DNA of 64,000 bases from Shinisaurus crocodilurus. Its lineage: Eukaryota > Chordata > Lepidosauria > Squamata > Shinisauridae. The notes below the pieces were generated by a model, which did not search any database, was not told where the DNA came from, and saw only the letters and a program-made list of their open reading frames with translations. Location of the stretch: contig CM037880.1 of the NCBI GenBank assembly GCA_021292165.1, forward strand, positions 224,098,467-224,162,466. Direction: 5' to 3'. Below are positions 2,230 to 25,952 of the stretch, in pieces; positions within the stretch are counted from its first letter, which is position 1; each line of letters opens with the position of its first letter. Both the position numbers and the translations under genes were made by a program.

Positions 2230-2923
2230 CAGGGATGTTGAAGAGTCCTTGGTTTCGAGTCACGAGTCAAGTCACGAGTCTTTGGACCCGAGTCTCGAGT
2301 CCGAGTCCGAGTCCTTGGTCCAAAATGGTGACTTACGAGTCACGAGTCACGAGTCACTCCCAAAGCTGACTCCACGAGTCCCTATTAAAATCAATGGGGG
2401 TTTTCCCCAACAAAATAAGGCTATTTCAGAGGTGTGTGGCTTAAATAAATTCTATGCACAAGTGTGCCTTTTTATTTCAACACTCTGCCACTGATTTTGA
2501 CAAGAACAGACCAGGCAGACAAACCCAAAATAACCAGGCAGGCAGAGGAGGCAGGGAACCCCAAAACAGGCAGGGAGAGGCCTTTGTCTTGGACAATTCA
2601 AACTGTGGAACTGGTCAAGAAGAGACCAGGCAGGCAGAGGAGGCAGGGAACCCCAAACAGGCAGGCAGAGGCAGCCAAACCCAAAATGTCTGAAAGGTTG
2701 CATTTTAGGAAAATGATTTTAAAAAATAAACTTGCTGTACTTCCTAAAACCTATCCATGTTGCATTTGAGGAACACGATTTTGGAACGTGAGCCCTTGGT
2801 CTCGAGTCCCGAGTCGAGTCTCGAGTCCCATTAAAAATATTGGGACTCGAGTCTGACTCGAGTCACAGGCGGGACTCAGTCCGACTCACGAGTCGAGTCC
2901 TGGAGTCCGAGTCCCCATCCCTG
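2230..2923. mobile_element. non-autonomous hAT-like element rich in GAGTC repeats
   Basis: The ends are CAGGGATG...CATCCCTG. They are flanked by GCTCCCGG on the left and a similar GCTTCCCG on the right, consistent with the 8-bp duplication of hAT elements; the mirror copy in the right arm shows it better. Both ends are built from many degenerate ACTCG/GAGTC units. The middle (about 2400-2770) holds (CAGGCAGAGG)-type repeats. No transposase frame is visible. Confidence 0.6.
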
Positions 2924-3497
2924 GCTTCCCGGGGGGTGTTAAACCTGCCCCCCACCTGTTTTCATCCCAAAGTTGCACCCCCCCCAAAGGGGGTTAAAAA
3001 GGGGTGGGCACTTCTTTGGCTCCAGTGGAGTCTTTTCTCTCTCTCTCTTTTTAACCCCCTTATGGGTGTGTGTTGAATTTTGGGACAAAAGCAGCTGGGG
3101 AGAAGGTTTACCCCTCCCCCCACTGGAGTGCCATGGTCTCAAACCAAATCGGGGCCACATGCACTTACACTGAAGTAAAACAAGGCGCATATCCCTGCCT
3201 GAGCCAGCTTCTCTTCTTCCTTGAAAGGCGAGTCAAGTGGGGGACCACCAGGCTCAGGCCTGCAGCAGCAGCAGCCCACCTACCCACGGGGTCTCTGATT
3301 GGCTGGCTGCCTGCCTGCCTGCCTCAAACTAGCCAATGAGCCAGCCAGGAAAGGATGAGTGTCCTGTATGATGTCTTGCACTTTTTTAAAAAAAAAAAAA
3401 AATTGCCAGCGTGGGGGAGCGTACTCCCAAGGAATGATTTGGACCAGGAGCTACTTCGTGGCCTGCAACAGCAGGCAGTGAAGGGAGGAAATGTTAA

Positions 3498-3610
3498 ATC
3501 ATAGAATTACTGAGTTGGAAGGGGGGCATTTAGGCGATCAAGTCCCACCCCCTGCTCAGTGCAGGAATCCAGTTTAAAGCATCCCTGACAGGTGGCTGTC
3601 CAGTCTCAGC
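3498..3610 (-). repeat. CR1 LINE 3' end fragment
   Basis: The antisense CR1 3' signature is visible: ATCATAGAAT, then GAGTTGGAAGG and CCCCTGCTCAGTGCAGGAATCC. The mirror copy is at about 25375-25492. Confidence 0.65.
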
Positions 3611-3862
3611 CTGTCAACCACTGGATTTAAATTTACTTGTTTCATTCTCACTGTAAGTGAAATAAAATAAAAGACCGAGAGCCCAATATCTCTGTGACGG
3701 ATTCTCAAGGAACCCAGGTCTTGATGTGCAGCCACCCTCACCCCACGGTCTTGCTTCCTTAGCTGGGGCTGGCCTCTGCCCTGCTCTCTGCCTCAAGCCC
3801 CTCCTAGCTCCCGGGGCCTGGCAAAGAAGTTGGAGAGACAACAGAAGCTTGCTCAAAAGAAG

Positions 3863-3868
3863 TTTATT
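3863..3868 (-). terminator. poly(A) signal of left F-type lectin gene
   Basis: AATAAA on the minus strand, about 70 bases past the stop codon. It is conserved in the right-arm copy at 25126-25131. Confidence 0.65.
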
Positions 3869-3939
3869 GGATGACCACCATTGATTTAATCTCCCTTGGC
3901 AATCCCCCCACACACCCACGAAAGATGCAAAGCTGGCGA

Positions 3940-6900
3940 TCAGAGGCACCGCTGGTGACCCGACTTCGTCCCATAGACCTCCACCTCACACAGCGTCATG
4001 TATTCTGCCCGGCCAGGGATGTGGACGCTAACGTAGCGGCCCTTGAGCCCTTTGCAATAGAGGGTACTGATGGAGCCCCGGCTGATGTCTGTGACGGTCC
4101 CACAGCTGCAGAGAGAGAAGGAGGGTCAGCCGTGGGGCGGCAGCAATTCTGACTGACTCAATCTAAGCCAGTGTTCTCCAACCTTGGGTCCCCAGATGTT
4201 TTTGGCCTACAACTCCCAGCATGCCCCAGCCAGCGTAGCTGGCTGGGGCATGCTGGGAGTCGTAGGCCAAAAACATCTGGGGACCCAAGGTTGGAGAACA
4301 CTGATCTAAGCAGTAGGTGAATGCATTCGTATGTATAACCTCTGACATTCCTAAAACTACTAAGAGGGCATTGTGCCCCCCCCCACTCCCACCCCCAGAC
4401 ACAGAGGTGGCATGCCTGGAGTCTATCAGGTGTTGCTCTCACCGTTGCTAGCTACTCTTCTAGTCTAGATTACTTATTCTGGAATAACAACCACCCACTG
4501 TTTCCATCTCTGTTCCCAGTCCCTCCTGTGGATCAAAGCCACTTTTTCACCCAGAAGAAGCATACTCTCTCCCTCTGCCCATCATTATGAAGACAAAAAG
4601 GGGAGCCATGTGCAACCCGAGAGGTTTTTGCTTCAGGGAGTGGGGCAGAGTGGGGGAATGGAACTTACAGGGGGTCGGATTTGCCCAGGCCAGCCACGGA
4701 ATCTCCCACGTGGATCTCGGCACCCTGGAGTCTTTCGCCACAGCAGTCCTCACGGTTTTTCACCACCACAGTGGAGATGACGTACTGATCGCCCAAGTCC
4801 ACGTACCACCAGGGGTCCATGTCCTGTTTCGTGTGGGCGCAGGAGATTCGTTTAGAGAAGTCCCCACCACAATCGCCATCCACAGCTTTTCCTGCCACTG
4901 TATTGAGCGGGGTTTCGTAGGTGGAGGACTGAAAGGCTGGACGGCCTCTGGCCAAGTTCTGAGCTAGAGACATGATGGAAAGAAGGTGGGGTGGGAAGAG
5001 AAATGGTCGTCGTTAGAGATGGTCATGGACCCCTCCTTCTCTGGGCAAGCGCAGACCAGGGGGGAGCACGTGGAAAGCCATTGGGACACCCCCTTTCAGT
5101 GGAGATTGTGGGGAAGGGATTGGTATGGGGGGATAGCATCCATGCTTGTTGAGAGGCTGTGCTATTTCACAGATGGCCATGGAGGGACGTTTCTTGATGG
5201 AAGGTGTGAAGAAAAGCATGCAGAGTCTCTGTGTTGTCGTCGTCGTCGTCCCCCACGCACACACATGTAAATAAGTGTAATGACTTTGGATGAGGGTGAA
5301 CAAACTGAGGCTTAATCCAGACAAGGAAGAGGCGAGAAAGAGGACGGTCCGGAAACTTCAGCTGGTTCAAAATAGGGCAGCGAGATTATTAACCGGGACT
5401 GGCCGACGAGAACATATTATGCCAGTGCTTTCTCATCTGCACTGGCTGCCAGTCTGTTTCCGGGCCCGATTCAAAGTGCTGGCGCTAACATTTAAAGCCC
5501 TAAACGGCTTGGGGTCAGGGTATCTGTAGGATCGTCTCCTCCCATATGTACCTGCCCGGACACTAAGATCTGCATCAGCGGTCCTTCTCTGAGAGCCCCT
5601 GCCAAAGGAAGTGAGGCAGGTGGCTACCAGGAGGAGGGCCTTTCCTGCTGTGGCACCCCGGTTATGGAATGAGCTCCCCAAAGAGGTTCAGCCTGGCGTC
5701 TACTTTGTATTCTTTCCGGCACCAGGTGAAGACCTTTCTGTTCTCCCAGGCATTTTAATCATCTTAATCATTTTAATCTTGTAATTGTTTTTAATTGCAT
5801 TATTGTAACTGCTGCTGCTAGCTCTGCTGTTTGTTTTTAATCTGTGGTTTTAAATTTTATATTTTATGTTGTATTTTATGATTTTAACTGTTGTAAACCA
5901 CCCAGAGAGCTTTGGCTATTGGGCGGTATAAAAATGTATTAAATAATAAACAAACAAACAAATAAATAAATAGGTGGTCCTGGTTAGTCAAAAGGGAGAT
6001 CGAGGAAATGGGACTCAACCTGTGCTGGGTGGGGTTACAGGTGAGTGGCGCAAATCAAAATGCACCAGCCTCTGAAAATGCGCCATCCAGGATATAGGGA
6101 CATGTCCACATTAACCTTTATGGTTCTATGAGGCTTTGGCAGCAGACCCAGGCAACAGAACCAGGCAAGTATCGCCCTCTGGCAATGGCTATGCCATGTC
6201 TCTTGTTCACCGGACAAGAAACCAAGTGTTTGTCTTCCTCTGTCAGGTGTTGGAGGCTGTGCAGGAAACATAAAGGCCCTTGGCTGATGTCTCAGCTTTG
6301 AGCTTCACTATGAGGTTTGGTCTCCAGTTGTGCAGAGGAGCCACAATGGAAGGGCTTCCTTTGAAGAACATTGGCACTCAGCTACTAGAAATATTGAGTG
6401 AGTTTGCACATCACGGCAACCAGCCCTGCAAATAAGGTACCGTGGAGAGAAAGCTTAGCGGAGCACACACTTTGCCCCGCATTCTAGCTGCATAATCTCT
6501 GCCTGTGGCCGGAGAGCTCTGCATACTGATGGTTTCCCCCAAGCACTCTCAATGGTTTTTCAAGCACCCTCAATCGCCCTTCCGATTGTGGCTCCGCACC
6601 CTCTCCTGCCTGGCCAGACCGGTTCGTCCTGTCAGCAGAGGGAGGGGTCAGGGGATCGAGCGGGGCGGGGGGAGAAGCAAGGGGGTAAAAGAAGCAGCCA
6701 AGGCTTCTGAAGGTTGTTGGAAGCAGGATGCTAAGGAGCACAGAGCGGGTCACCAGCTCAGGCCAGCCCGGACACTAAACCCCCAAGCAGACTGCCTGGG
6801 TACATTGCCGTAAGTCCGTTCAATTTGCTAGCTTTTAGACTAGGTTAGATTCTTTGGTGTTAGCATAGAACAGCTTAGGTTCTTTTTTGTGTTGTAGTTC

Positions 6901-7635
6901 TGACCGTGTGTAACAAGCTACTTCCTCTTGTCAAATTCAATTACCTTATCTCCCCATTCCAATTTGTATTGTTTACCCTTCAATAAAGTGCTTTCATTTT
7001 TGACTGAAGCATAGTTTCACTTTGACTCAGTGCTCAAAATCCAGTGTTTGTGACCTGAACTGAACTGGGGATCACAAGCAGGAGCCCTGAGCTGTCCAAA
7101 TAGCCGCTGCGCTCCCGTTCTTGCAGAAAAGGACCGGCGGCGGTCCTTCACAGCTACACAGAGTGGGTTGTTTGTGAAACAACCCATGGTATGCCCGACA
7201 GATGATCAGGCTCACCGTGGGTTGTCCCCTGTCCTTCCCCCTCAGTCCTTTCGTGGGTATCCCAGGGGGCCCTGTGGCAGGACCCAACTTGTCTGCCACC
7301 CCTGCTGTGATTGCCCTTTTGCACTTGCTGTGCCCCCCCTTTTACCCATTTTTTTTTCTTTTTTCAGAATCGCTTTTTGTGATTGCCGATTTGAGAGCCC
7401 CTCCAAAGAGCCCAAGAAGCAGCATATACGTCATCCGTCTGGGGGAAGCAAAAAAAGAAAAGCTCCATTCTGGGGGCCACCATTTTGTGTTTGGGGCTGC
7501 CCCCCCCACACACCACAATTTCCCCTCTTTTCCCCAGTTCTTACCTATGCCAGAGAACTCCATCTTGCAGCTCTGGGCCTCCCCAGGTCCTGCCAGTAAT
7601 GCCAGGACCAGCAGTGAAGTCCATAGGATGAGCAT
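3940..7635 (-). CDS. secreted F-type lectin (fucolectin), left-arm copy
   Basis: Predicted fucose-binding lectin of 183 aa. Coding exons on the minus strand are 7635-7545 (signal peptide), 4963-4669 and 4105-3940; all four splice junctions are GT/AG and the phases join cleanly (91+295+166 nt). Residues 1-20 form a signal peptide (MLILWTSLLVLALLAGPGEA), so the product should be secreted. Residues 33-174 are one F-type lectin domain. It carries the fucose-binding signature His74, then Arg101-x-Asp103, then Arg108, at the same spacing as eel fucolectin, plus the adjacent cysteines 104-105. Established role of the family: fucosylated-glycan recognition in innate immunity. The start ATG directly follows a strong splice acceptor (CCCCTCGCAG), so an upstream non-coding exon is likely. 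Intron 1 holds an L2 fragment and an LTR-like block; intron 2 holds a foldback MITE. Residues 66-70 differ sharply from the right-arm copy. Confidence 0.88.
4169..4303. mobile_element. foldback hAT MITE (135 bp) in lectin intron 2
   Basis: Two inverted arms of about 65 bp form a near-perfect hairpin with CAGTGTTCTCC ends. It is flanked by a perfect 8-bp duplication ATCTAAGC (4161-4168 and 4304-4311), as expected for hAT transposition. Six further copies lie in this window. Confidence 0.9.
5290..5960 (+). repeat. L2-clade LINE, 5'-truncated RT tail and 3' UTR
   Basis: Translated fragments read 'NKLRLNPDKEEARKRTVRK', 'NRAARLLTGTGRREH' and 'HWLPVCFRARFKVLALTF', typical of the C-terminal end of L2 reverse transcriptase. 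An L2-type 3' end follows (GGCGGTATAAAAATG and an A-rich tail near 5925-5972). Stops and a missing segment make it non-functional. The mirror copy is 23075-23712. Confidence 0.82.
6480..7075 (+). repeat. LTR-like block with AATAAA, family unknown
   Basis: A GC-rich stretch is followed by an AT-rich one containing CAATAAAGTGC near 6981, then about 90 bases resembling an R-U5 end. It is also present in the right arm (about 20770-21370). No TG...CA ends or target duplication could be fixed. It could equally be a processed 3' UTR. Confidence 0.3.
7140..7330. repeat. DNA-transposon fragment related to 32378-32790
   Basis: Motifs 'acagatgatc', 'gtgggttgtc', 'cccaggggg' and 'ttgcccttttg' occur in the same order as at 32457-32570. 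No ends or duplication were resolved. The mirror copy is at about 20510-20690. Confidence 0.4.
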
Positions 7636-7779
7636 CCTGCGAGGGGGTGCATGTGGAGAGGGGAGTGAAGAAGAAGTCAGTGAGAGGGAGCAGATGCTAG
7701 GCCTAAGGCAGGGGTCCCCAATGGAGTCCCTGTGGCATCCACAGGCACCCCCAGCATCTGTGAAGGGGTCCCCCTTCAC

Positions 7780-8280
7780 AGGCATATATCCATTTTTAAA
7801 AAATATAGGTACATGGATTTGTATATATCCATAGCAATGAATACATATGACATGCATACAATGTCCTAGCAATTATACATAGGCTTCAACAAAAGCCCGT
7901 TCTTAAGAATGTCTTTAAGTCTAATTTGTATGTAAGTCAGAACAGCATAGCGTTCTATACGTTAAAATCGGCATTTACGCAAATGGCATAAATTACACAA
8001 ATTGCGTAGTGTACTACGCTATGTACTCTATGTAAATGGCATAGCGCCGGGGAGCCCAGAAGTCCGTTCTTAAGTACGGGTTGTCTGTAAGTCGGACGTC
8101 CTTAACTCGGGGACTGCCTGTACCAACAGTGTTCAGATCCAGAAGAATGGAATTTTAGAGGACAAATTGGAAACTGGACATAAAACTGGACAGAACTGAA
8201 AATAGAGGGCAGTCCTGGACAAAATAAGTCATCTGGCCACCCTATTTCAAATCAGATGAAATAGGCACTGTAGATCTGCC
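7780..8280. other. intergenic, repeat-like but unassigned
   Basis: This stretch upstream of the left lectin gene contains a segment beginning 'caggcagtccccgagttaag' (read on the minus strand, about 8123 downwards) with an internal imperfect palindrome around TACGCTATG. A second repeat-like stretch (8150-8260) ends 'ctggccaccct'. Both recur only in the other arm within this window. No coding potential was recognised. Confidence 0.35.
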
Positions 8281-8392
8281 CATCATGGTTTTCGGCTCTT
8301 TAGCAGGCTGCATGGGGGTAGAGCAAACATGGCAGACCCCCTCCCATGATCGTTGGCAGCCATGAAGGTGATCTCTTTAAGATGCCTTAGAG

Positions 8393-8513
8393 CAGTGTTC
8401 TCCAACCTTGGGTCCCCAGATGTTTTTGGCCTACAACTCCCTGCATGCCCCAGCCAGCTATCCTGGGAGTTGTAGGCCAAAAACATCTGGGGACCCAAGG
8501 CTGGAGAACACTG
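8393..8513. mobile_element. foldback hAT MITE (121 bp)
   Basis: Same hairpin family as 4169-4303, with a shorter loop. Flanks CCTTAGAG and CCTTAAAG are an 8-bp duplication with one mismatch. Confidence 0.9.
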
Positions 8514-8645
8514 CCTTAAAGCAAGGCTAAGCAGTCTTGCCTAAAAACCTTGTAGGTCACGTATACAAGGCTAGTCCTAGCAACACCAAAGCTAATCACA
8601 GCTGTACATATTCAAAAAGCTCCAGGTGGGCAAACCCCAATTTAA

Positions 8646-9029
8646 TTATGCCAGCCCTATGGTGATGTTTCCACACATAATGTAGTAATCACCAGTTGAG
8701 GGGTAAGACATGGAATTTCTAAACTTCTGGAAAGGCCTCTGTTTGGGAACAGCTGTAGGCTCAGCACTCTCCTGAGTGGTTTGTCCACCCAAATTTCCTC
8801 CTTTTTGCATCCGTGTGATGACTTGGGCTAAGAGTTGTCCCAACTCTATTGATTCAGCCGGACAGATCTCTTGGACCCATTGCGGAATCTTCCTGTAACC
8901 CTTTTGTGGCTTTGTAGTATTGCCACGTGGCGCCCTTTTGAGCCCTTGAAGCTTTTTGTCTGAACAGTATGAGAGCTCTGGGTTTCTCAGACCCTCAGTG
9001 TGCCGATTCATGGCATCGGTTCCATTCAT
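8646..9029 (-). pseudogene. unrecognised 127-codon frame, present in both arms
   Basis: The open frame starts MNGTDAMNRHTEG and ends CGNITIGLA. It has no domain I recognise. In the right arm the corresponding frame shifts after about residue 73, so at least one copy is broken. It sits directly downstream of a SINE, so the frame may have extended further upstream before that insertion. A retroelement origin is possible but not shown. Confidence 0.25.
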
Positions 9030-9052
9030 GGCTGTTGGACCAGTAACGTACC

Positions 9053-9250
9053 GGGAGGGTCTATGGCTCAGTGGCAGAGCCTCTGCTTTGCATGCATAAG
9101 GCTACAGGTTAAATCCCTGGAATCTCCAGGTAGGACCAGAAAGAATCCTGCCTGACGCCCTGGCGAGCCACCGCTGCCCTTCAGCGTCGACAGTGCTGGG
9201 CTGGATGGATCCGTGGGGGGCTGGCTCGGTAGAAGGCGGCCACCTCTGCT
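9053..9250 (+). repeat. tRNA-derived SINE
   Basis: Pol III internal promoter boxes are visible: A box TGGCTCAGTGG (9064-9074) and B box GGTTAAATCCC (9108-9118). The body that follows contains 'gccctggcgagcc' and 'gggctggatggatcc'. The anticodon region resembles TGC (Ala-like). Confidence 0.65.
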
Positions 9251-9630
9251 CCTCTGACCATGATGCTGAACCACCCCCCAGGTCTCTTGGCCTCCCCCAC
9301 TGCTGGCAGGATTCCACCTGCTTTTTGAAGTGCAGCGGACACCAAAGTTCTTCTGTGGCCACCGATGGCCAGGTATCACCCAGGTAGACCTGGTTGCCTC
9401 TGCTGGTCCTCGTAACCCAGATAGAACCTGCCAAGAGGCACAGAACGCCACTGTTCTGCCACTCCGCCCTATCTCGCTCACTCAGAATGTTATTGTTTAT
9501 AGCCAATGGCCATCACACATATATACATAGAATATAAAATTAAAAAAAAAACAGGTTGAACATTTAATATAATGAAACAAAATGCTATAAAATAATCCAG
9601 GTTTAGAAACATTCTTTCTGTATGGCCCCC

Positions 9631-10248
9631 TTATGGTTTGGCAGTAGTTTGGTTTATAAAGGCTGCCCTTATTTTCCTTGCAGCTAACGCAAATAAAGCT
9701 ATCCTGTAGCTAATAAATTTGTCCACATCAGACAACAACCATCTAATTTTAAAATCGTCTGATTGACCTTCTAAAGTAGTCTGAAAAGGAAGAATAAATC
9801 TGGCCCTGGGTGATTTATATAGTGGACAATATAGAATATAATGTACCAGATCTTCAATGTGCCCTGTTTCACATATGCAAAAACGCACTCGTGCAGGTCT
9901 GTTAGAAAACCTTCCAGCCAAATACTCAGTGGGCATTGTTTCAAATCTGAGCTGGGTCAAAGCATGCCTAACAGGGAAGAAGGTTAGCTCTTGCAGATAG
10001 CTTGCCCTTTTGTGTTCTATTTTAATCTTGGCATACCAAGTGGCAGATTTGCAGTTTTTTATATATTCAAGATCTCTTTTGGCATCTTCGCCAAACACAA
10101 TATCTCGGATCTTATGATCAGACACATCCTGCATTGTCGTTGCTAAGGGAATCGAGTAACTCAGCATCAAGCATCTGCAAGAGTTTGCCCAGCCTTCTCT
10201 ATTCTGCAACTCCAAAAAGCATAGTTTTGCTAAATGGTTTTCTGACAA
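9631..10248 (-). pseudogene. non-LTR retrotransposon ORF2, C-terminal part
   Basis: A 205-codon frame ends in a Cys/His module (CICETGHIEDLVHYILYCPLY, read in part) typical of the region after the reverse transcriptase in several LINE families. No RT or endonuclease domain is present, so the copy is 5'-truncated. The right arm carries an almost identical frame at 17573-18190. The clade is not determined. Confidence 0.65.
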
Positions 10249-10607
10249 TGATGTTAATTTTTTCCAATATAATATTATGGATTTGTGTATACGTGCATTC
10301 AGGGAAGGGAGACCTAGTTCAGTTCACTCCGTCCTATCAGTCTCCCAGACTCCCCACGGTCTGGCCACCAAAGTCCTTGCCTTGTCCAAGGCAGAGATCT
10401 GCTGTAATCTCTTTTTTCTGAAAGCACTTATTTTTCCCACAGAGACCCTAAAAGTTTCAGTGCGCCCAATTCTTCAGCTTCAGGAATGGGTTATTCAAAT
10501 CCAAGGAGAGGGATCTTTTGTAACTCTAGACTATTTTCAGGAGGACCTCCATCTCCAAAGTGTAGTCTCCTACTCTGCACCCCCTTTCCTATTGTGTGTG
10601 TTCTGTG

Positions 10608-11275
10608 CAGGGCTGGATTAAGAGCATTATGGGCCCGGAGCTGAGGAGGGCGCGCGGCTGAAGAGGGTGCAGAAACGCTGCGCTCCTCTTTGCTGCCGCT
10701 GCGCCGCCCCCGCCAGGCCTCTGCCTCCGCTGCACCGCCCCCACCAGGCCTCCGTCTCCCCACCCTCCCGCCCACCCGCCGCTGCCGCCGCACCCTCCTG
10801 TCCCGCTCGCCGCTGCGCCTCCCCCCACCCTCCCGCCGCCGCCGCCATCACCACCACCCCGACCCCCTCCCCGCCACCTACCTTCTCCACGTCGTGTTGC
10901 TTCCGGAGCCCCGCCCGCGTTGTTTTGGCGGGAGGAACCAGGGCAACAGGGCTTAAACAGCCCTGTTGCCATGGTTTCCCCGGCAAAAAACAGCGCGGGG
11001 GTCCCGTCGCGTCACTTCCTCCTCCTCGCCGGCGGCAGCGGCAGCGGCGGCAGCAGCAGCAGCAGCCGCCAGGGCGGGGGGAAGGTAGGTTGGTGGTGGC
11101 GGCGCAGGGTTTTTTTTTTTTTTTGCAGAGCAGGGCTGCTTTGGAGAGGGCCCCCCGCTAAATATTATTTCGCCTGGGGCGCCAAACTGCCCTGCACCGG
11201 TCCTGATTGTGGGCCTATTTTCTGGTAGGGGCCTGGAGCTGCAGCTCCAATAGCCCCTATCTTAATCTGGCCCTG
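10608..11275. mobile_element. GC-rich non-autonomous hAT element, left arm only
   Basis: Terminal inverted repeats CAGGGCTGGATTAAG and CTTAATCTGGCCCTG are flanked by a perfect 8-bp duplication GTTCTGTG (10600-10607, 11276-11283). The right arm has the uninterrupted empty site near 17218, so insertion followed the inverted duplication. Inside are very GC-rich CCGCC/CCTCC runs and a segment shared with the hAT at 33876-34705, ending 'cctgcaccggtcctg' before the outer end. The long frames here are low-complexity and not genes. Confidence 0.87.
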
Positions 11276-11283
11276 GTTCTGTG

Positions 11284-11734
11284 AGTGTACAATTCAGCCT
11301 AATTTTGGACAGTATTTGTTGGGAGCTCAGCCCCTTTAGTGCAGCCTTCCCCTGGCCAACCAGTGGGTAGATTGGCTGAGACTCCTGGCTGTTCTTTCCG
11401 AAGTTTCCTCTCTATGCCCCACATCAGTCAGCCATGTTTTCCAGAAGATTGATTCAGCTGAGTTGTTTAGGTAACCTTATGCCTTTTGCAGTGCCAACCT
11501 TTTATGTCACTATATGTCCCAGATATCTTATTGTACACCCCCCTTTAAAGCTGTTTTAAGTTGTTTTTTAAATTTTTTGTGTTAACAGCTTTTATTATGT
11601 TTCCTTTTGTAATTTTGTGAACTACTCAGAGACGTGGCTTTTGGGAAGTGTAGAAATGAAATAAATGAAATGAAAACATTTTCCCTGAGAGGAAATGGGA
11701 GGAAGCAGAGTGCACACACAGGTGCTAGAAATTG

Positions 11735-11783
<49 letters not shown>

Positions 11784-12466
11784 CGCACATCAGCTATAGG
11801 TAACCCCATCCTATTCCTGCCCTCCCCTTTTATTGTATTAAGTGTGCACAAGGATTAGTCGGATCTGTTTGGACAGGCCCCCGTGGGACCCTCCCCCACT
11901 CTTTTTCTTTCCCACTCTTGCAAGCTCACCCCAAACCCTTCTTTTCCCTTCCCAGAAGTCTTTGAGCTCCCTATTTGTCCAACCTCCTTGGACTCAGAAG
12001 CCCAGCCCAGATCAGCCTGGATGTTACACACATGTCCGGGTCATGCACCGCAGCCCTCAGTTCAGCTGCCAAGAGAACTAAACTAGCTTCCCCGCACCCT
12101 TGTTCTCTCCACATCTGTTGCACACCGTGTATGTTTTGTTCGCTTTGCCTTTTTGTAATGGACATCCTACCAAGTTAATTTCCCCAATAATGGGTGAATA
12201 TTTTAAATTCTCAGGTGTGTTTAATAAATTCCACTGTTAACTGAGGAAGACAGTATGTGTGTGTGAGTCGTTGATTTGCCTCTTCCCAGACAAACTTTTG
12301 CCAAGGTTAAAAGACACCCTAACAACCGTGTGTCTTGAGAATGTGCACAAGTTTGTACACATGTCTTGAGGAGCAGATTTGGTAACAGCTCTCCTTTCTT
12401 CTGGGGGATGGAGGATTTGATGGGCTCCAGGTATCAGGTCCATTGTCCCCCCCACACACAACTCAC
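11284..12466. other. non-genic left-arm DNA with L2 tail and microsatellite
   Basis: Contains an L2-like 3' tail ('gaactactcagagacgtggc', about 11570-11680), a (TG)n(AG)n microsatellite at 11734-11784, and otherwise no recognisable gene. The same content is at about 16260-17210 in the other arm, with the microsatellite longer and mainly (CT)n. Confidence 0.5.
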
Positions 12467-12590
12467 CTTGAATCTACTTCTTGGGTCAAGCAGAACCGTC
12501 AGTTGCCCTCCTTGGCGGTTTTGCAATGACAGCTTATTTTCTTCAAACTGGTGTGGAGACCGCAGTGATGGCACCTGGATCCTGGACCTT
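12467..12590 (-). pseudogene. short segment homologous to the 3' end of the envelope-like remnant
   Basis: Read on the minus strand, this aligns with 36140-36262, including 'cagtttgaagaa' and the final CAAG|GTGAGT that looks like a splice donor. The rest of the envelope-like frame is absent here. The mirror copy is 15870-15994. Confidence 0.4.
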
Positions 12591-13211
12591 CTTTTGAGCA
12601 GTCCAGGTTTTATCTCCTTTCCAGTGGGCGGCTCTTGCCTGGCTCATAAAAACCAAGCCAATCATGTTGGGCCAAGGTTGAAATGATCAAGATCAGGGTT
12701 TTCTCTTCCCATGTGGTTTCTTTCTTGCTTTGGGTGTTGGCACTTGTGGATTATGTTATTCAACCCACACCCAATTGAAGAATGACTTTCCCCCCTTCAA
12801 CTCCTCCTCCTTCAACTCTTCCAATATCCAACTGGTTGTTGGCTCTCTCCTTAAGAATATCTCCACTTTCCCATTTAAGTCATGTTGAGCACCAACAAAT
12901 ATATACAACTATTGATTTTAGCCAGGTGCCAAACACAGCCATCCAGTTCCAAAGTCAATACTCAAGTGGATGGATTGGGGATTGCCCTTCTCTGTTGCAA
13001 TGATGACCAAAGGAACATAAGGAGAGCCATGCTGGATCAGACCACAGACTCTTTTTATATTTTTAATATCTTTACTGCTTCATTTTTTTTGTTGCATTAT
13101 TGCTATGTGTGTTTTTAGATACAGACTACCTTTTCTCAAACACATGCTCAATGTAATAAAAATATTATAAAACCTTAAAATACATAATCCTATATAATGC
13201 CATAGTATATT

Positions 13212-15250: not shown

Positions 15251-15869
15251 TAGTATACTATGGCATTATATAGGATTATGTATTTTAAGGTTTTATAATA
15301 TTTTTATTACATTGGGCATGTGTTTGAGAAAAGGTAGTCTGTATCTAAAAACACACATAGCAATAATGCAACAAAAAAATGAAGCAGTAAAGATATTAAA
15401 AATATAGAAAGAGCCTGTGGTCCGATCCAGCATGGCTCTCCTTATGTTCCTTTGGTCATCATTGCAACAGAGAAGGGCAATCCCCAATCCATCCACTTGA
15501 GTATTGACTTTGGAACTGGATGGCTGTGTTTGGCACCTGGCTAAAATCAATAGTCATATATATTTGTTGGTGCTCAACATGGCTTAAATGGGAAAGTGGA
15601 GATATTCTTAAGGAGAGAGCCAACAACCAGTTGGATATTGGAAGAGTTGAAGGAGGAGGAGTTGAAGGGGGGAAAGTCATTCTTCAATTGGGTGTGGGTT
15701 GAATAACATAATCCACAAGTGCCAACACCCAAAGCAAGAAGGAAACCACATGGGAAGAGAAAACCCTGATCTTGATCTTTCAACCTTGGCCCAACATGAT
15801 TGGCTTGGTTTTTATGAGCCAGGCAAGAGCCGCCCACTGGAAAGGAGATAAAACCTGGACTGCTCAAAA

Positions 15870-15994
15870 GAAGGTCCAGGATCCAGGTGCCATCACTGCG
15901 GTCTCCACACCAGTTTGAAGAAAATTAGCTGTCATTGCAAAACCGCCAAGGAGGGCAACTGACGGTTCTGCTTGATCCAAGAAGTAGATTCAAG
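15870..15994 (+). pseudogene. short segment homologous to the 3' end of the envelope-like remnant (right arm)
   Basis: Aligns with 36140-36262 and ends in CAAG|GTGAGT. It is the mirror copy of 12467-12590. Confidence 0.4.
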
Positions 15995-16687
15995 GTGAGT
16001 TGTGTGTGTGTGGGGGGGAACAATGGACCTGATACCTGGAGCCCATCAAATCCTCCCTCCCCCAGAAGAAAGGAGAGCTGTTACCAAATCTGCTCCTCAA
16101 GACATGTGTACAAACTTGTGCACATTCTCAAGACACACGGTTGTTAGGGTGTCTTTTAACCTTGGCAAAAGTTTGTCTGGGAAGAGGCAAATCAACGACT
16201 CACACACACATACTGTCTTCCTCAGTTAACAGTGGAATTTATTAAACACACCTGAGAATTTAAAATATTCACCCATTATTGGGGAAATTAACTTGGTAGG
16301 ATGTCCATTACAAAAAGGCAACAAAAACATACACGGTGCGCAACAGATGTGGAGAGAATCAAGGGTGCGGGGAAGCTAGTTTAGTTCTCTTGGCAGCTGA
16401 ACTGAGGGCTGCGGTGCATGACCCAGATGTGTGTGTAACATCCAGGCTGATCTGGGCTGGGCTTCTGAGTCCAAGGAGGTTGGACAAATAGGGAGCCCAA
16501 AGACTTCTGGGAAGGGAAAAGAAGGGTTTGGGGTGAGATTGCAAGAGTAGGAAAGAAAAAGAGTGGGGGAGGGTCCCACGGGGGCCTGTCCAAACAGTGG
16601 GTGGTGCGATCCGACTAATCCTTGTGCACACTTAATACAGTAAAAGGGGAGGGCAGGAATAGGATGGGGTTACCTATAGCTGATGTG

Positions 16688-16689
<2 letters not shown>

Positions 16690-16755
<66 letters not shown>

Positions 16756-16756
16756 C
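16690..16756. repeat. (CT)n(CA)n microsatellite
   Basis: About 40 bp of CT followed by about 20 bp of CA. The left-arm equivalent (11734-11784) has a different unit count, a simple marker for telling the arms apart. Confidence 0.9.
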
Positions 16757-17572
16757 AATTTCTAGCACCTGTGTGTGCACTCTGCTTCCTCCCATTTCCT
16801 CTCAGGGAAAATGTTTTCATTTCATTTATTTCATTTCTACACTTCCCAAAAGCCACGCTCTCTGAGTAGTTCACAAATAGTACAAAAGAAAAACATAATA
16901 TAAAAGCTGTTAACACACAAAATTTAAAAACAACTTAAAACAGCTTTAAAAGGGGGGGGTGTACAATAAGATACTGGGACATATAGTGACATTAAAAGGT
17001 TGGCACTGCAAAAGGCAATAAGGTTAACACACTCAGCTGAATCAAATCTTCTGGAAAACATGGCTGACTGATGTGGGCATAGAGAGGAAACTTCGGAAAG
17101 CAACAGCCAGGAGTCTCAGCCAATCTACCCACTGGTTGGCCAGGGGAAGGCTGCATTAAGGGGCTGAGCTCCCAACAAATACTGTCCAAAATTAGGCTGA
17201 ATTGTACACTCACAGAACACACACAATAGGAAAGGGGGTGCAGAGTAGGAGACTACACTTTGGAGATGGAGGTCCTCCTGAAAATAGTCTAGAGTTACAA
17301 AAGATCCCTCTCCTTGGATTTGAATAATAACCCATTCCTGAAGCTGAAGAATTGGGCGCACTGAAACTTTTAGGGTCTCTGTGGGAAAAATAAGTGCTTT
17401 CGGAAAAAAGAGATTACAGCAGATCTCTGCCTTGGACAAGGCAAGGACTTTGGTGGCCAGACCGTGGGGAGTCTGGGAGACTGATAGGACGGAGTGAACT
17501 GAACTAGGTCTCCCTTCCCTGAATGCACGTATACACAAATCCATAATATTATATTGGAAAAAATTAACATCA

Positions 17573-18190
17573 TTGTCAGAAAACCATTTAGCAAAACTAT
17601 GCTTTTTGGAGTTGCAGAATAGAGAAGGCTGGGCAAACTCTTGCAGATGCTTGATGCTGAGTTACTCGATTCCCTTAGCAACGACAATGCAGGATGTGTC
17701 TGATCATAAGATCCGAGATATTGTGTTTGGCGAAGATGCCAAAAGAGATCTTGAATATATAAAAAACTGCAAATCAGCCACTTGGTACGCCAAGATTAAA
17801 ACAGATCACAAAAGGGCAAGCTATCTGCAAGAGCTAACCTTCTTCCCTGTTAGGCATGCTTTGACCCAGCTCAGATTTGAAACAATGCCCACTGAGTATT
17901 TGGCTGGAAGGTTTTCTAACAGACCTGCACAAGAGCGTTTTTGCATATGTGAAACAGGGCACATTGAAGATCTGGTACATTATATTCTATATTGTCCACT
18001 ATATAATTCACCCAGGGCCAGATTTATTCTTCTTTTTCAGACTACTTTAGAAGGTCAATCAGACGATTTTAAAATTAGATGGTTGTTGTCTGATGTGGAC
18101 AAATTTATTAGCTACAGGATAGCTTTATTTGCGTTAGCTGCAAGGAAAATAAGGGCAGCCTTTATAAACCAAACTACTGCCAAACCATAA
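17573..18190 (+). pseudogene. non-LTR retrotransposon ORF2, C-terminal part (right arm)
   Basis: Mirror of 9631-10248; it keeps the same 205-codon frame and the Cys/His module, with a few substitutions (for example Arg/Gln at the residue after 'NRPA'). No RT domain, so not autonomous. Confidence 0.65.
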
Positions 18191-18579
18191 GGGGGCCATA
18201 CAGAAAGAATGTTTCTAAACCTGGATTATTTTATAGCATTTTGTTTCATTATATTAAATGTTCAACCTGTGTTTTTTTTAAATTTTATATTCTATGTATA
18301 TATGTGTGATGGCCATTGGCTATAAACAATAAAATTCTGAGTGAGCGAGATAGGGCGGAGTGGCAGAACAGTGGCGTTCTGTGCCTCTTGGCAGGTTCTA
18401 TCTGGGTTACGAGGACCAGCAGAGGCAACCAGGTCTACCTGGGTGATACCTGGCCATCGGTGGCCACAGAAGAACTTTGGTGTCCGCTGCACTTCAAAAA
18501 GCAGGTGGAATCCTGCCAGCAGTGGGGGAGGCCAAGAGACCTGGGTGGTGGTTCAGCGTCATGGTCAGAGGAGCAGAGG

Positions 18580-18775
18580 TGGCCGCCTTCTACCGAGCCA
18601 GCCCCCCACGGATCCATCCAGCCCAGCACTGTCGACGCTGAAGGGCAGCGGTGGCTCTCCAGGGCGTCAGGCAGGATTCTTTCTGGTCCTACCTGGAGAT
18701 TCCAGGGATTTAACCTGTAGCCTTATGCATGCAAAGCAGAGGCTCTGCCACTGAGCCATAGACCCTCCCGGTACG
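18580..18775 (-). repeat. tRNA-derived SINE (right arm)
   Basis: Mirror of 9053-9250. A and B boxes are readable on the minus strand within 18701-18770. Confidence 0.62.
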
Positions 18776-18792
18776 TTACTGGTCCAACAGCC

Positions 18793-19175
18793 ATGAATGG
18801 AACCGATGCCATGAATCGGCACACTGAGGGTCTGAGAAACCCAGAGCTCTCATACTGTTCAGACAAAAAGCTTCAAGGGCTCAAAAGGGCGTCACGTGGC
18901 AATACTACAAAGCCACAAAAGGGTTACAGGAAGATTCCGCAATGGGTTCAAGAGATCTGTCCGGCTGAATCAATAGAGTTGGGACAACTCTTAGCCCAAG
19001 TCATCACGGATGCAAAGAGGAGGGAAATTTGGGTGGACAAACCACTCAGGAGAGTGCTGAGCCTACAGCTGTTCCCAAACAGAGGCCTTTCCAGAAGTTT
19101 AGAAATTCCATGACTTACCCCTCAACTGGTGATTACTACATTATGTGTGGAAACATCACCATAGGGCTGGCATAA
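18793..19175 (+). pseudogene. unrecognised frame, frameshifted right-arm copy
   Basis: Mirror of 8646-9029. It keeps the first 70 or so residues, then the frame shifts near 19010. No domain recognised. Confidence 0.25.
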
Positions 19176-19307
19176 TTAAATTGGGGTTTGCCCACCTGGA
19201 GCTTTTTGAATATGTACAGCTGTGATTAGCTTTGGTGTTGCTAGGACTAGCCTTGTATACGTGACCTACAAGGTTTTTAGGCAAGACTGCTTAGCCTTGC
19301 TTTAAGG

Positions 19308-19428
19308 CAGTGTTCTCCAACCTTGGGTCCCCAGATGTTTTTGGCCTACAACTCCCAGCATAGCTGGCTGGGGCATGCAGGGAGTTGTAGGCCAAAAACA
19401 TCTGGGGACCCAAGGTTGGAGAACACTG
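19308..19428. mobile_element. foldback hAT MITE (121 bp, right arm)
   Basis: Mirror of 8393-8513. Flanks CTTTAAGG and CTCTAAGG. Confidence 0.9.
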
Positions 19429-20194
19429 CTCTAAGGCATCTTAAAGAGACCACCTTCATGGCTGCCAACGATCATGGGGTGGTCTGCCATGTTTGCTCTA
19501 CCCCCATGCAGCCTGCTAAAGAGCCGAAAACCATGATGGGCAGATCTACAGTGCCTATTTCATCTGATTTGAAATAGGGTGGCCAGATGACTTATTTTGT
19601 CCAGGACTGCCCTCTATTTTCAGTTCTGTCCAGTTTTATGTCCAGTTTCCAATTTGTCCTCTAAAATTCCATTCTTCTGGATCTCTGAACAGTGTTGGTA
19701 CAGGCAGTCCCCGAGTTAAGGACGTCTGACTTACAGACAACCCGTACTTAAGAACGGACTTCTGGGTTCCCCGGCGCTATGCCATTTACATAGAGTACAT
19801 AGCGTAGTACACTACGCAATTTGTGTAATTTATGCAATTTGTGTAAAATGCCGATTTTAACGTATAGAATGCTATGCTGTTCTGACTTACATACAAATTA
19901 GACTTAAAGACATTCTTAAGAACAGGCTTTTGTTGAAGCCTATGTATAATTGCTAGGACATTGTATGCATGTCATATGTATTCATTGCTATGGATATATA
20001 CAAATCCATGTACCTATATTTTTTAAAAATGGATATATGCCTGTAAGCACCACAGTGGGGACCCCTTCACAGATGCTGGAGGTGCCTGTGGATGCCACAG
20101 ACACCCCATTGGGGACCCCTGCCTTAGGCCTAGCATCTGCTCCCTCTCACTGACTTCTTCTTCACTCCCCTCTCCACACGCACCCCCTCGCAGG

Positions 20195-23100
20195 ATGCTC
20201 ATCCTATGGACTTCACTGCTGGTCCTGGCATTACTGGCAGGACCTGGGGAGGCCCAGAGCTGCAAGATGGAGTTCCCTGGCATAGGTAAGAACTGGGGAA
20301 AAGAGGGGAAATTGTGGTGTGTGTGGGGGGGCAGCCCCAAACACAAAATGGTGGCCCCAGAATGGAGCTTTTCTTTTTTTGCTTCCCCCAGACGGATGAC
20401 ATATATGCTGCTTCTTGGGCTCTTTGAGGGGGCTCTCAAATCGGCAATCACAAAAAGCGATTCTGAAAAAAGAAAAAAAAATGGGTAAAGGGGGGGGGGC
20501 ACAGCAAATGCAAAAGGGCAATCACAGCAGGGGTGGCAGACAAGTTGGGTCCTGCCACAGGGCCCCCTGGGATACCCACGAAAGGACTGAGGGGGAAGGA
20601 GGACAGGGGACAACCCACGGTGAGCCTGATCATCTGTCGGGCACACCATGGGTTGTTTCACAAACAATCCACTCTGTGTAGCTGTGAAGGACCGCCGCCG
20701 GTCCTTTTCTGCAAGAACGGGAGCACAGCGGCTATTTTGACAGCTCAGGGCTCCTGCTTGTGATCCCCGGTTCAGTTCAGCTCACAAACACTGGATTTTG
20801 AGCACTGAGTCAAAGTGAAACTATGCTTCAGTCAAAAATGAAAGCACTTTATTGAAGGGTAAACAATACAAATTGGAATGGGGAGATAAGGTAATTGAAT
20901 TTGACAAGAGGAAGTAGCTTGTTACACACGGTCAGAACTACAACACAAAAAAGAACCTAAGCTGTTCTATGCTAACACCAAAGAATCTAACCTAGTCTAA
21001 AAGCTAGCAAATTGAACGGACTTACGGCAATGTACCCAGGCAGTCTGCTTGGGGGTTTAGTGTCCGGGCTGGCCTGAGCTGGTGACCCGCTCCGTGCTCC
21101 TTAGCACCTTGCTTCCAACAACCTTCAGAAGCCTTGGCTGCTTCTTTTACCCCCTCGCTTCTCCCCCCGCCCCGCTCGATCCCCTGACCCCTCCCTCTGC
21201 TGACAGGACGAACCGGTCTGGCCAGGCAGGAGAGGGTGCGGAGGTTTCGGTGTCACCTTGCCCCTCGGAAGGGCGATTGAGGGTGCTTGACAAACCATTG
21301 AGAGTGCTTGGGGGAAACCATCAGTATGCAGAGCTCTCCGGCCCCAGGCAGAGATTATGCAGCTAGAATGCGGGGCAAAGTGTGTGCTCCGCTTGGCTTT
21401 CTCTCCGCAGTACCTTATTTGCAGGGCTGGTTGCCGTGATGTGCAAACTCACTCAATATTTCTAGTAGCTGAGTGCCAATGTTCTTCAAAGGAAGCCCTT
21501 CCATTGTGGCTCCTCTGCACAACTGGAGACCAAACCTCATAGTGAAGCTTAAAGCTGAGACATCAGCCAAGGGCCTTTATGTTTCCTGCACAGCCTCCAA
21601 CACCTGACAGAGGAAGACAAACACTTGGTTTCTTGTCCGGTGAACAAGAGACATGGCATAGCCATTGCCAGAGGGCGATACTTGCCTGGTTCTGTTGCCT
21701 GGGTCTGCTGCCAAAGCCTCATAGAACCATAAAGGTTAATGTGGACATGTCCCTATATCCTGGATGGCGCATTTTCAGAGGCTGGTGCATTTTGATTTGC
21801 GCCACTCACCTGTAACCCCACCCAGCACAGGTTGAGTCCCATTTCCTCGATCTCCCTTTTGACTAACCAGGACCACCTATTTATTTATTTATTTATTTGT
21901 TTATTATTGTGGAGGAAGAGGGGGGGCTGGCTGACCCGCCAGACTCCCCACCTTTCCTCCCTGCAAAAGGAAACCCAGCACTTGCCACCATGTGGCCCGG
22001 AAGGGGGGGGCTGGCTGACCCGCCACCACCCCACCCTTGCCTGCTGGCAAAGGAACCAAGACCCCCAGAGATCTCAAGGTACCAGATTGCCAGCCTCAGC
22101 TGTCTCCTGCAATCCTACTTGGATCTCTGTTTAGGGACTCGCCTTCATATTTCTGTAACCTGGATTTAGATACTGAACTCACAGAGCACTACAAAACCCA
22201 TTTGGGGTGAAACCAAGACAAGGTTTATTTCTGGTAGCATCTTACAACAAGATTAGGGAAATGAGAGAAGCACACAAAATAGAGAGACACTTTAGTACAC
22301 AGTAAAGCTGCAAAATAAGAAAACCTGATTCCTTAAAATCTCTCAAGCACACACCTGTTACCTGAGGGTGTCTTCTTCAAAGGGTTAGATCCAGCACAGC
22401 CTTGCCGCCCGATAGAGAATTACCACACCTACCCGAAGGTCCAAGATGGGTAAACTCTTACAAGGCTTGCTTTCACCAGTCCTTCAAACCAGCCAATTTT
22501 ACCAGGGGCTGCCTGGGGTCGATTCTTGAGGGGGCCCCCCCTAAAGGCTCGGGCCCCTCGCTGGCACGCTGCCATGCCGGGCACGCTACCAAAGGGACTG
22601 ACCAAGACTGACCAAGAACAAAGGCTTACACGTGGGGGAAAAGCTCTCCCCCCTCCCCTTTTCTGTAACCTTCTTGCTTCAGCCAATCAATTTGAACTTC
22701 ACCTGGCCAGGCAGGGGGGAGGGAACTGGACCAGGCAGGGGGAAGGGAACTCCTGAGTCATGGCTTGAACTATTTGAATTACATCTGCATATGAACGCTT
22801 TCAGCCTGGCTCCTCCAGACCTCTGGGCGCCAGGCCCCATCCTATGTTCCATGCACCTTTCGCTTCCTCCCAGCCCCCGCCTGGTTCACTCATGAGGAGG
22901 CGTGTGTGTGTGTGTGTGTGTGTGTGTTTGTGTTCCTGCATGCATGCATGCATGCATGAACCCTAAAAACTCTTTTCTCTACACTCTAACTATGCACACC
23001 CCACCCCAGCCGGTTCACACCTGAGGTGTGTGTGTGTACCCCCAAAGGCTCGTTTCTCCACAATTATTTAATACATTTTTATACCGCCCAATAGCCAAAG

Positions 23101-25054
23101 CTCTCTGGGTGGTTTACAACAGTTAAAATCATAAAATACAACATAAAATATAAAATTTAAAACCACAGATTAAAAACAAACAGCAGTTACAATAATGCAA
23201 TTAAAAACAATTACAAGATTAAAATGATTAAGATGATTAAAATGCCTGGGAGAACAGAAAGGTCTTCACCTGGTGCCGGAAAGAATACAAAGTAGATGCC
23301 AGGCGAACCTCTTTGGGGAGCTCATTCCATAACCGGCGTGCCACAGCAGGAAAGGCCCTCCTCCTGGTAGCCACCTGCCTCACTTCCTTTGGCAGGGGCT
23401 CTCAGAGAAGGACCGCTGATGCAGATCTTAGTGTCCGGGCAGGTACATATGGGAGGAGACGATCCTACAGATACCCTGACCCCAAGCCGTTTAGGGCTTT
23501 AAATGTTAGCGCCAGCACTTTGAATCGGGCCCGGAAACAGACTGGCAGCCAGTGCAGATGAGAAAGCACTGGCATAATATGTTCTCGTCGGCCAGTCCCG
23601 GTTAATAATCTCGCTGCCCTATTTTGAACCAGCTGAAGTTTCCGGACCGTCCTCTTTCTCGCCTCTTCCTTGTCTGGATTAAGCCTCAGTTTGTTCACCC
23701 TCATCCAAAGTCATTACACTTATTTACATGTGTGTGCGTGGGGGACGACGACGACAACAACACAGAGACTCTGCATGCTTTTCTTCACACCTTCCATCAA
23801 GAAACGTCCCTCTATGGCCATCTGTGAAATAGCACAGCCTGTCAACAAGCATGGATGCTACTCCCCCCATACCAATCCCTTCCCCACAATCTCCACTGAA
23901 AGGGGGTGTCCCAATGGCTTTCCACGTTCTCCCCCCTGGTCTGCGCTTGCCCAGAGAAGGAGGGGTCCATGACCATCTCTAACGACGACCATTTCTCTTC
24001 CCACCCCACCTTCTTTCCATCATGTCTCTAGCTCAGAACTTGGCCAGAGGCCGTCCAGCCTTTCAGTCCTCCACCTACGAAACCCCGCGCAATACAGTGG
24101 CAGGAAAAGCTGTGGATGGCGATTGTGGTGGGGACTACTTTAAACCAAGCTCCTGCGCCCACACAAAACAGGACATGGACCCCTGGTGGTACGTGGACTT
24201 GGGCGATCAGTACGTCATCTCCACTGTGGTGGTGAAAAACCGTGAGGACTGCTGTGGCGAAAGACTCCAGGGTGCCGAGATCCACGTGGGAGATTCCGTG
24301 GCTGGCCTGGGCAAATCCGACCCCCTGTAAGTTCCATTCCCCCCACTCTGCCCCACGCCCTGAAGCAAAAACCTCTCGGGTGGCACAGGCTCCCCTTTCT
24401 GTCTTCATAATGATGGGCAGAGGGAGAGGGTATGCTTCTTCTGGGTGAAAAAGTGGCTTTGATCCACAGGAGGGACTGGGAACAGAGATGGAAACAGTGG
24501 GTGGTTGTTATTCCAGAATAAGTAATCTAGACTAGAAGAGTAGCTAGCAACGGTGAGAGCAACACCTGATAGACTCCAGGTATGCCACCTCTGTGTCTGG
24601 GGGTGGGAGTGGGGGGGGCACAATGCCCTCTTAGTGGTTTTAGGAATGTCAGAGGTTATACATATGAATGCATTCACCTACTGCTTAGATCAGTGTTTTC
24701 CAACCTTGGGTCCCCAGATGTTTTTGGCCTACGACTCCCAGCATGCCCCAGCCAGCTACGCTGGCTGGGGCATGCTGGGAGTTGTAGGCCAAAAACATCT
24801 GGGGACCCAAGGTTGGAGAACACTGGCTTAGATTGAGTCAGTCAGAATTGCTGCCGCCCCACGGCTGACCCTCCTTCTCTCTCTGCAGCTGTGGGACCGT
24901 CACAGACATCAGCCGGGGCTCCATCAATACCCTCTATTGCAAAGGGCTCAAGGGCCGCTACGTTAGCGTCCACATCCCTGGCCGGGCAGAATACATGACG
25001 CTGTGTGAGGTGGAGGTCTATGGGACGAAGTCGGGTCACCAGCGGTGCCTCTGA
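20195..25054 (+). CDS. secreted F-type lectin (fucolectin), right-arm copy
   Basis: Predicted 183-aa fucose-binding lectin. Coding exons are 20195-20285, 24032-24326 and 24889-25054, with donors GTAAGA and GTAAGT, acceptors CTCTAG and CTGCAG, and phases that join exactly. It has a signal peptide (1-20) then a single F-type lectin domain (33-174) with His74, Arg101-x-Asp103, Arg108 and the Cys104-Cys105 pair. Cysteines 62, 72, 130, 146 and 168 are also conserved between copies. Against the left-arm gene it has Pro28 (Ser), Arg50 (Leu), Tyr66 (Phe), Phe67 (Ser), Pro69 (Arg), Ser70 (Ile) and Asn142 (Ser), with one silent change. Intron 1 gained a solo LTR; intron 2 has a MITE. The ATG follows a strong acceptor, so a 5' non-coding exon is expected but was not found. 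Fucose specificity is inferred from the family motif. Confidence 0.9.
21908..23062 (-). mobile_element. solo LTR, right arm only
   Basis: Ends are TGTGGAG...CTCCACA with a perfect 5-bp duplication ATTAT on both sides (21903-21907, 23063-23067). Sense is minus: U3 has (CA)n, the poly(A) signal AAATAAACC lies on the minus strand near 22227, and U5 ends at 21908. The left arm has the empty site near 5945, so insertion followed the inverted duplication. Same family as 28301-29217 and 38664-39536. Confidence 0.88.
23075..23712 (-). repeat. L2-clade LINE fragment (right arm)
   Basis: Mirror of 5290-5960, with the same C-terminal RT fragments on the minus strand. The solo LTR at 21908-23062 separates it from its A-rich 3' tail. 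Confidence 0.82.
24691..24825. mobile_element. foldback hAT MITE (135 bp) in lectin intron 2 (right arm)
   Basis: Mirror of 4169-4303, with a perfect 8-bp duplication GCTTAGAT on both sides. Confidence 0.9.
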
Positions 25055-25125
25055 TCGCCAGCTTTGCATCTTTCGTGGGTGTGTGGGGGGATTGCCAAGG
25101 GAGATTAAATCAATGGTGGCCATCC

Positions 25126-25131
25126 AATAAA
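25126..25131 (+). terminator. poly(A) signal of right F-type lectin gene
   Basis: AATAAA 72 bases past the stop codon, identical in placement to the left-arm gene. Confidence 0.65.
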
Positions 25132-25374
25132 CTTCTTTTGAGCAAGCTTCTGTTGTCTCTCCAACTTCTTTGCCAGGCCCCGGGAGCTAGGAGGGGCTTG
25201 AGGCAGAGAGCAGGGCAGAGGCCAGCCCCAGCTAAGCAAGACCGTGGGGTGAGGGTGGCTGCAGATCAAGACCTGGGTTCCTTGAGAATCCGTCACAGAG
25301 ATAATTGGGCTCTCGGTCTTTTATTTTATTTCACCAATGAGAATGAAACAAGTAAATTTAAATCCAGTGGTTGA

Positions 25375-25492
25375 CAGGCTGAGACTGGGCAGCCACCTGT
25401 CAGGGATGCTTTAAACTGGATTCCTGCACTGAGCACGGGTTGGGACTTGATCGCCTAAATGCCCCCCTTCCAACTCAGTAATTCTATGATTT
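25375..25492 (+). repeat. CR1 LINE 3' end fragment (right arm)
   Basis: Mirror of 3498-3610, ending 'aattctatgatt'. Confidence 0.6.

Positions 25493-25919: not shown

Positions 25920-25922
<3 letters not shown>

Positions 25923-25952
<30 letters not shown>

Follow-up and report, generated by a model that had tools for sequence, protein, structure and literature searches.

Introduction

In the passages on Anguilla anguilla agglutinin (AAA, PDB 1k12) of a review, His27 and Phe45, together with Leu23 and Tyr46, are described as forming the C6 pocket for fucose (PMC5712786). According to the same passages, Tyr46, which lies in the loop CDR2, can touch larger ligands at their glycosidic oxygen, and galactose may be admitted where Leu23 and Phe45 are replaced by serine (PMC5712786). 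The review's parts on eels and oysters present the Japanese eel fucolectins eFL-1 to eFL-7 as many copies that vary in CDR1 and CDR2, residues of the pocket among them, and the oyster bindins as F-type lectin domains with variation in the fucose pocket (PMC5712786). Since loop-varying isoforms are known from eels and oysters, the kind of finding reported here is not new. Among the matches listed in our literature search there was no paper on the evolution of the pocket in squamate fucolectins, which does not prove its absence from the literature, and F-type lectin together with Anolis gave no match.

Here, we analyzed two closely similar fucolectin genes of Shinisaurus crocodilurus. The window, i.e., the whole stretch of 64,000 nucleotides under analysis (C5:224098467-224162466), is part of a 2.19-Gb assembly. 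Positions are those of the window unless a chromosome or locus is given.

Results

An inverted repeat with two fucolectin genes

Each arm of an inverted repeat carries one complete fucolectin gene of three exons, and in the gene models of both copies the GT-AG introns are placed identically. The left as well as the right copy has a coding length of 552 nt including the stop codon and encodes a product of 183 residues. Outer matches that are weaker or shorter (1918-2581, 2625-2718 and 13852-14003) were left out of the arm comparison.

2714..13209, no strand: left arm, compared stretches (10608-11275 without partner)
15254..26392, no strand: right arm, compared stretches
7545..7635, minus strand: left fucolectin exon 1 with the signal peptide, 91 nt; Ser at codon 28, Pro in the right copy
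4669..4963, minus strand: left fucolectin exon 2, 295 nt, with CDR1, CDR2 and the His/Arg/Arg triad
3940..4105, minus strand: left fucolectin exon 3 with the stop codon, 166 nt; Ser at codon 142, Asn in the right copy
20195..20285, plus strand: right fucolectin exon 1
24032..24326, plus strand: right fucolectin exon 2
24889..25054, plus strand: right fucolectin exon 3

The two proteins are identical at 176 of 183 residues. Scores for the F-type lectin profile PF22633 were 79.0 and 82.0 bits in the two copies (cut-off 27.8), those for PF00754 39.2 and 42.9 bits (cut-off 28.2), and sequence comparison of the left copy gave 2e-68 with 3cqo and 1.1e-27 with 1k12. Both copies contain the fucose-binding triad (His74, Arg101, Asp103, Arg108; H-x26-R-x-D-x4-R) with the spacing of the AAA triad 52/79/86. 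The HX24 formula given in the review misses both copies, and the AAA residue numbers in the same source also yield 26 (PMC5712786). The contiguous cysteines Cys104-Cys105 are kept and the cation motif h2DGx is present as AVDGD at residues 57-61 in both copies, and neither these two elements nor the triad differ between left and right. By sequence profile, triad, cysteine pair and cation motif, both genes are F-type lectins (fucolectins). The closest homologues by identity are squamate fucolectins, at up to 71%. In the left gene, the reading frame and the splice sites are intact, as are the signal peptide, the triad and the cysteines.

The lectin array and its neighbours

Seven fucolectin loci in mixed orientation (+ - + + - - +) lie in C5:223995562-224123517, which comprises the loci L009 to L013 and the window. 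The array's eighth lectin locus is a decayed exon 2 remnant at 39648-39836 (plus strand; PF22633, 33.8 bits) that lacks the binding histidine and the Asp-Cys-Cys motif. In L009, exon 2 (4563-4853 of the locus; C5:223995562-223995852, plus strand) has an open frame in which Gln, Cys and Ser/Thr replace the fucose triad and the cysteine pair is broken; judged from these residues, L009 is probably a fucolectin that lost fucose binding or a decaying gene. In BLAST pieces that sum to 3.9 kb, L011 and L013 share about 94.5% identity; lying in opposite orientation, they perhaps represent an older inverted pair. A foldback element, about 135 bp in length, sits in intron 2 of the window genes (4169-4303 and 24691-24825). 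Since L011 and L013 have copies of about 93% similarity between their exons 2 and 3, its insertion probably predates the split of these genes.

The window also holds an open 402-codon copia-type reverse transcriptase frame (2-1210, plus strand; PF07727, 146.6 bits). Casein kinase II alpha exon pieces (about 43.8-52.6 kb, minus strand) adjoin the lectin array; the one piece that was tested gave 3.5e-28 with 5osl and 30.2 bits for the Pfam kinase profile, slightly below the cut-off, and the others were taken from the ORF list. Outside C5, lectin stretches at C4:249.213 Mb and on contig C1179 are near-identical, the two longest pieces having 7/3323 and 11/3153 mismatches, and C1179 is probably a leftover haplotype contig. 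A second recent duplication was found in a distant lectin cluster at C4:249.055 and 249.1425 Mb (L017 and L018; 98.3% over 8.4 kb), where the matched portion of exon 2 gives an identical translation.

Coding differences and their position in the sugar pocket

From left to right, the two genes differ by S28P, L50R, F66Y, S67F, R69P, I70S and S142N and by one silent change at Thr75. The original prediction had counted eight sites in 552 coding bases, seven of them amino-acid changing, and a recount from the spliced models returned the same figures. Its statement that four changes (codons 66, 67, 69 and 70) fall within 13 bp, with a fifth at residue 50, was likewise borne out, and its coordinates, including the right-arm site, were correct on re-mapping.

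4846..4858, minus strand: four-replacement cluster, left F66 S67 R69 I70, in the CDR2 loop by alignment
24137..24149, plus strand: matching right cluster, Y66 F67 P69 S70
4906..4906, minus strand: codon 50 Leu (right Arg), CDR1
4830..4830, minus strand: sole silent coding difference (Thr75)

The clustered bases 4858, 4855, 4849 and 4846 of the left copy correspond to 24137, 24140, 24146 and 24149 of the right copy, and CDR1 and CDR2 together hold five of the seven replacements.

In the alignment to 1k12, the register of which is clarified by the loop WYKHGSC of the paralogue L010, the left residues F66 and S67 fall on Phe45 and Tyr46 of AAA. Lys68 is an extra residue, and positions 69-70 align on His47-Gly48, directly preceding Ser49 (a cation ligand), Cys50 and His52. 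The serine of the left copy thus occupies the position of Tyr46. Residue 50 aligns three residues beyond Glu26, the CDR1 apex residue of AAA. The cluster had been placed in a loop that sets the wider specificity around the pocket; it does lie in CDR2 by alignment, but as residues 66 and 67 fall on C6-pocket positions, this loop belongs in part to the primary site. The difference between these young duplicates is real and well placed to alter the sugar bound, and altered glycan binding by the left lectin is plausible from the aligned positions.

At the six sites that differ in exons 2-3, mean family entropy is high (p = 0.004) in 73 homologues, i.e., the first 75 of 111 after P0043 and P0067 were dropped for gaps. 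Such variability fits tolerance as well as diversification. Ile70 occurs in 0/110 homologues with a residue at that position and Arg69 in 0/31.

Divergence of the arms and clustering by chance

Over 9775 aligned bases the arms show 156 mismatches (1.3 to 2.2% across four aligned segments) and 47 gap runs, and the unmatched stretch of the left arm measures 668 bp. The mismatches divide into 8/552 coding (1.45%) and 148/9223 noncoding (1.60%), rates that are equal (p = 1.0). Complex gap-linked replacements are located at 2893-2884, 6591-6586, 11612-11596 and 11479-11464. Divergence amounts to 36/2564 (1.40%) in intron 1, six of these differences belonging to the replaced block at 6591-6586, and to 8/561 (1.43%) in intron 2. 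The original prediction had named equally high and clustered intron divergence as speaking against it, and this was found in part: intron divergence is as high as that of the coding sequence, and intron 1 has a cluster of its own.

3425..3440, no strand: noncoding control, five arm differences in 16 bp
6441..6456, no strand: intron 1 control, four arm differences in 16 bp

If differences are spread uniformly over exons 2 and 3 (taken as 465 positions), four of seven within 13 bp are expected with p = 0.002; the value rises to 0.014 for the 2.9-kb gene segment and to 0.11 for a cluster anywhere in the compared arms. Among 28,959 random noncoding windows of 552 bp, drawn from the three arm segments of sufficient length (the fourth is too short), a cluster of four in 13 bp was present in 11.5% when mismatches near gaps were removed and in 21.6% when all were kept. 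We therefore rejected the cluster as statistically exceptional by itself; its position on a specificity loop is the unusual part. When the exon map was slid along the noncoding columns, at least five hits fell into CDR1/CDR2 codons at 0.6% of the 9223 offsets with gap-clean mismatches and at 2.0% with all mismatches, and at least five loop hits combined with at most three elsewhere occurred at 0.4%. These percentages are optimistic because the offsets overlap and the loop limits (46-53 and 65-70) were fixed after the differences were known.

Polarity of the changes

In the protein tree, the two window genes are paired at 100/100, and the order of the next relatives is without support. The window genes were compared with six paralogues (L009-L013 and the broken copy L021). 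At codon 70 the right base is common to all six and at codons 66 and 69 it is shared with L012 only, while the left base at these three codons occurs in none of them. At codon 67, L010-L013 have A and L009 has G, matching neither window copy, and only L021, a broken copy on C3, has the right base. Codon 142 is a right-side change, codon 28 leans to the left, and codons 50 and 75 were assigned to neither side. These comparisons place the changes at codons 66, 69 and 70, perhaps that at 67 too, in the left lineage. With codon 67 depending on L021 and codons 66 and 69 on L012, a left origin of all four in one event is not proven.

A symmetric count assigned five coding changes to the left (codon 67 being counted on L021 alone), one to the right and two to neither. 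For the noncoding sequence, mismatches up to 8 columns from a gap were dropped and the count covers the 22 of 148 differences that are alignable to paralogues: 11 left, 6 right and 5 neither (p = 0.33). On this count we rejected a faster rate throughout the left arm. An earlier count of 16 left, 6 right and 7 neither had used the right arm as sole query and included a complex cluster.

Tests for selection

For the pair, dN was 0.0169 and dS 0.0077. The resulting dN/dS of 2.2, on a single silent change, exceeds 1 but not significantly (binomial p = 0.40), eight changes giving little power, and the whole-gene ratio was rejected as proof of selection. The replacement rate (7/418) equals the noncoding rate of 1.60% (p = 0.84). 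Within the gene, 5 of about 33 replacement sites in CDR1/2 changed versus 2 of about 370 elsewhere (Fisher p = 5e-5), which becomes p = 0.035 when the cluster is counted as one event. Outside the loops, 3/486 coding bases differ, below the noncoding rate but not significantly so (p = 0.09).

Of the 15 pairs among six array genes, 11 had replacement ratios of 1.1-4.2 for CDR1+2, where no more than 8-9 silent sites are available; L009 was left out of these codon counts, as its loop lengths differ and the triad is absent. Two pairs of the L010/L011/L013 group gave ratios of 0.39 and 0.29. For the window pair and for L011-L013, which has one replacement, the ratio is undefined as there is no silent change. 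CDR2 is identical (WYKHGSC) in L010, L011 and L013. Diversifying selection, as originally predicted, is thus not confirmed by the ratio of the pair, by the coding rate or by these paralogues.

Search for a donor of the left loop

In the array (C5:223.98-224.16 Mb; seven fucolectin loci and the remnant), the left loop was not found besides the left gene, and the less closely related lectins on C4 and contig C1179 have loops that differ from it. A genome-wide search with the 20-base left tract, allowing up to two mismatches, returned one exact match, the tract itself, and two one-mismatch sites on C1, with no lectin similarity within 3,020 bases around each. With the reversed pattern as control there were 12 matches, which puts near matches of the left tract at chance level. 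The conversion from a third lectin that the original prediction had offered thus found no donor among the lectin loci examined or in the 20-base search. With the left 15-mer as template and up to two mismatches, only the 15-mer itself was recovered in the window and the compared lectin loci, and a templated origin from nearby DNA was rejected. The right-copy exon 2 matched nine places in the assembly, both window genes included, the next best at 80%.

Discussion

We favour, with moderate confidence, a recent inverted duplication after which three or four bases of the left CDR2, all inside 13 bp, were altered in a loop that is freely variable in the family. A single clustered mutation, or else a short run, would explain this most simply. 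Diversifying selection, by which new glycan targets drove several independent replacements in the left CDR1 and CDR2 while the remaining protein was held, is possible as the cause of the loop difference, although we consider it the less probable course. The concentration of replacements in the loops argues for it if the four changes are independent (p = 5e-5), as do the rare slid exon maps that reproduce the pattern (0.4%), the frequent loop excess in older paralogue pairs (11/15) and the precedents that the review reports for oyster bindin pocket sites and eel isoform loops (PMC5712786). It is opposed by a whole-gene dN/dS and a replacement rate that do not depart from neutral or noncoding values (p = 0.40 and 0.84), by loop boundaries drawn with the differences already known and by L010, L011 and L013, which have no loop excess. 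The lesson is that four clustered replacements should not count as four votes for selection. That a redundant left copy drifts under relaxed constraint, the loop being its most tolerant part, is improbable: the excess of left-derived coding changes (five, codon 67 by L021 alone, against one on the right and two on neither) and residues at 69 and 70 that are absent from the homologues with these positions filled are consistent with it, but the left gene has remained intact and differs at few bases outside the loops (3/486, under the noncoding rate, n.s.).

That a third lectin donated a short gene-conversion tract appears very improbable. A one-lineage cluster with identical flanks does resemble such a tract, the array offers five other lectin loci besides a remnant, and a donor may be lost or unassembled, but the left loop is in no examined lectin locus, its 20-base tract is unique in the 2.19-Gb assembly, and both one-mismatch sites on C1 are non-lectin, with 12 matches for the control. 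Least credible of all is an artefact, be it a sequencing error or the joining of two haplotypes into an apparent inverted repeat. The arms are 1.6% apart with 47 gap runs and a 668-bp unmatched stretch, whereas the haplotype-like pair of C4 and C1179 differs far less; exon 2 has no further near-identical copy; and L012 has two of the right-cluster bases, another being common to six paralogues.

Under the favoured course, inverted duplication in the squamate fucolectin array would have produced two intact F-type lectin genes. Thereafter the left CDR2 would have changed by a clustered multi-base mutation or a few mutations, setting F-S-K-R-I in the left against Y-F-K-P-S in the right copy beside the fucose-binding His74. 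With this loop, the left lectin is predicted from sequence to have probably a more open and more basic C6-methyl pocket and a shifted glycan preference. More speculatively, and in our estimate rather unlikely, one multi-base mutation in one arm rewrote CDR2 in a single step and at once yielded a different glycan receptor (Ser for AAA Tyr46, with gained Arg and Ile), while its twin retained the older loop. The two lectins are naturally near-isogenic, with most of their differences in the pocket loops, and could serve in a glycan-array comparison to test the role of CDR2 in F-type specificity.

Compared with known systems, the pair resembles the fucolectin-like proteins of other squamates (Podarcis, Lacerta, Rhineura, Anolis and snakes), which are secreted, about 180 aa long and up to 71% identical; unlike here, Ile70 is found in none of the 111 homologues and Arg69 in none with the column filled. 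With AAA it shares the F-type family, the adjacent cysteines, the cation motif and the CDR2 pocket positions, but Lys68 is extra here, and Phe-Ser (left) or Tyr-Phe (right) stand against Phe45-Tyr46. For the oyster bindins, the review's account reports positive selection at eight pocket sites and recombination, whereas the whole-gene dN/dS of our pair is not significant (PMC5712786). Finally, eel AAA and the seven isoforms are given there as 68-78% identical (PMC5712786), while the pair described here agrees at 176 of 183 residues, with most of the difference in the loops.
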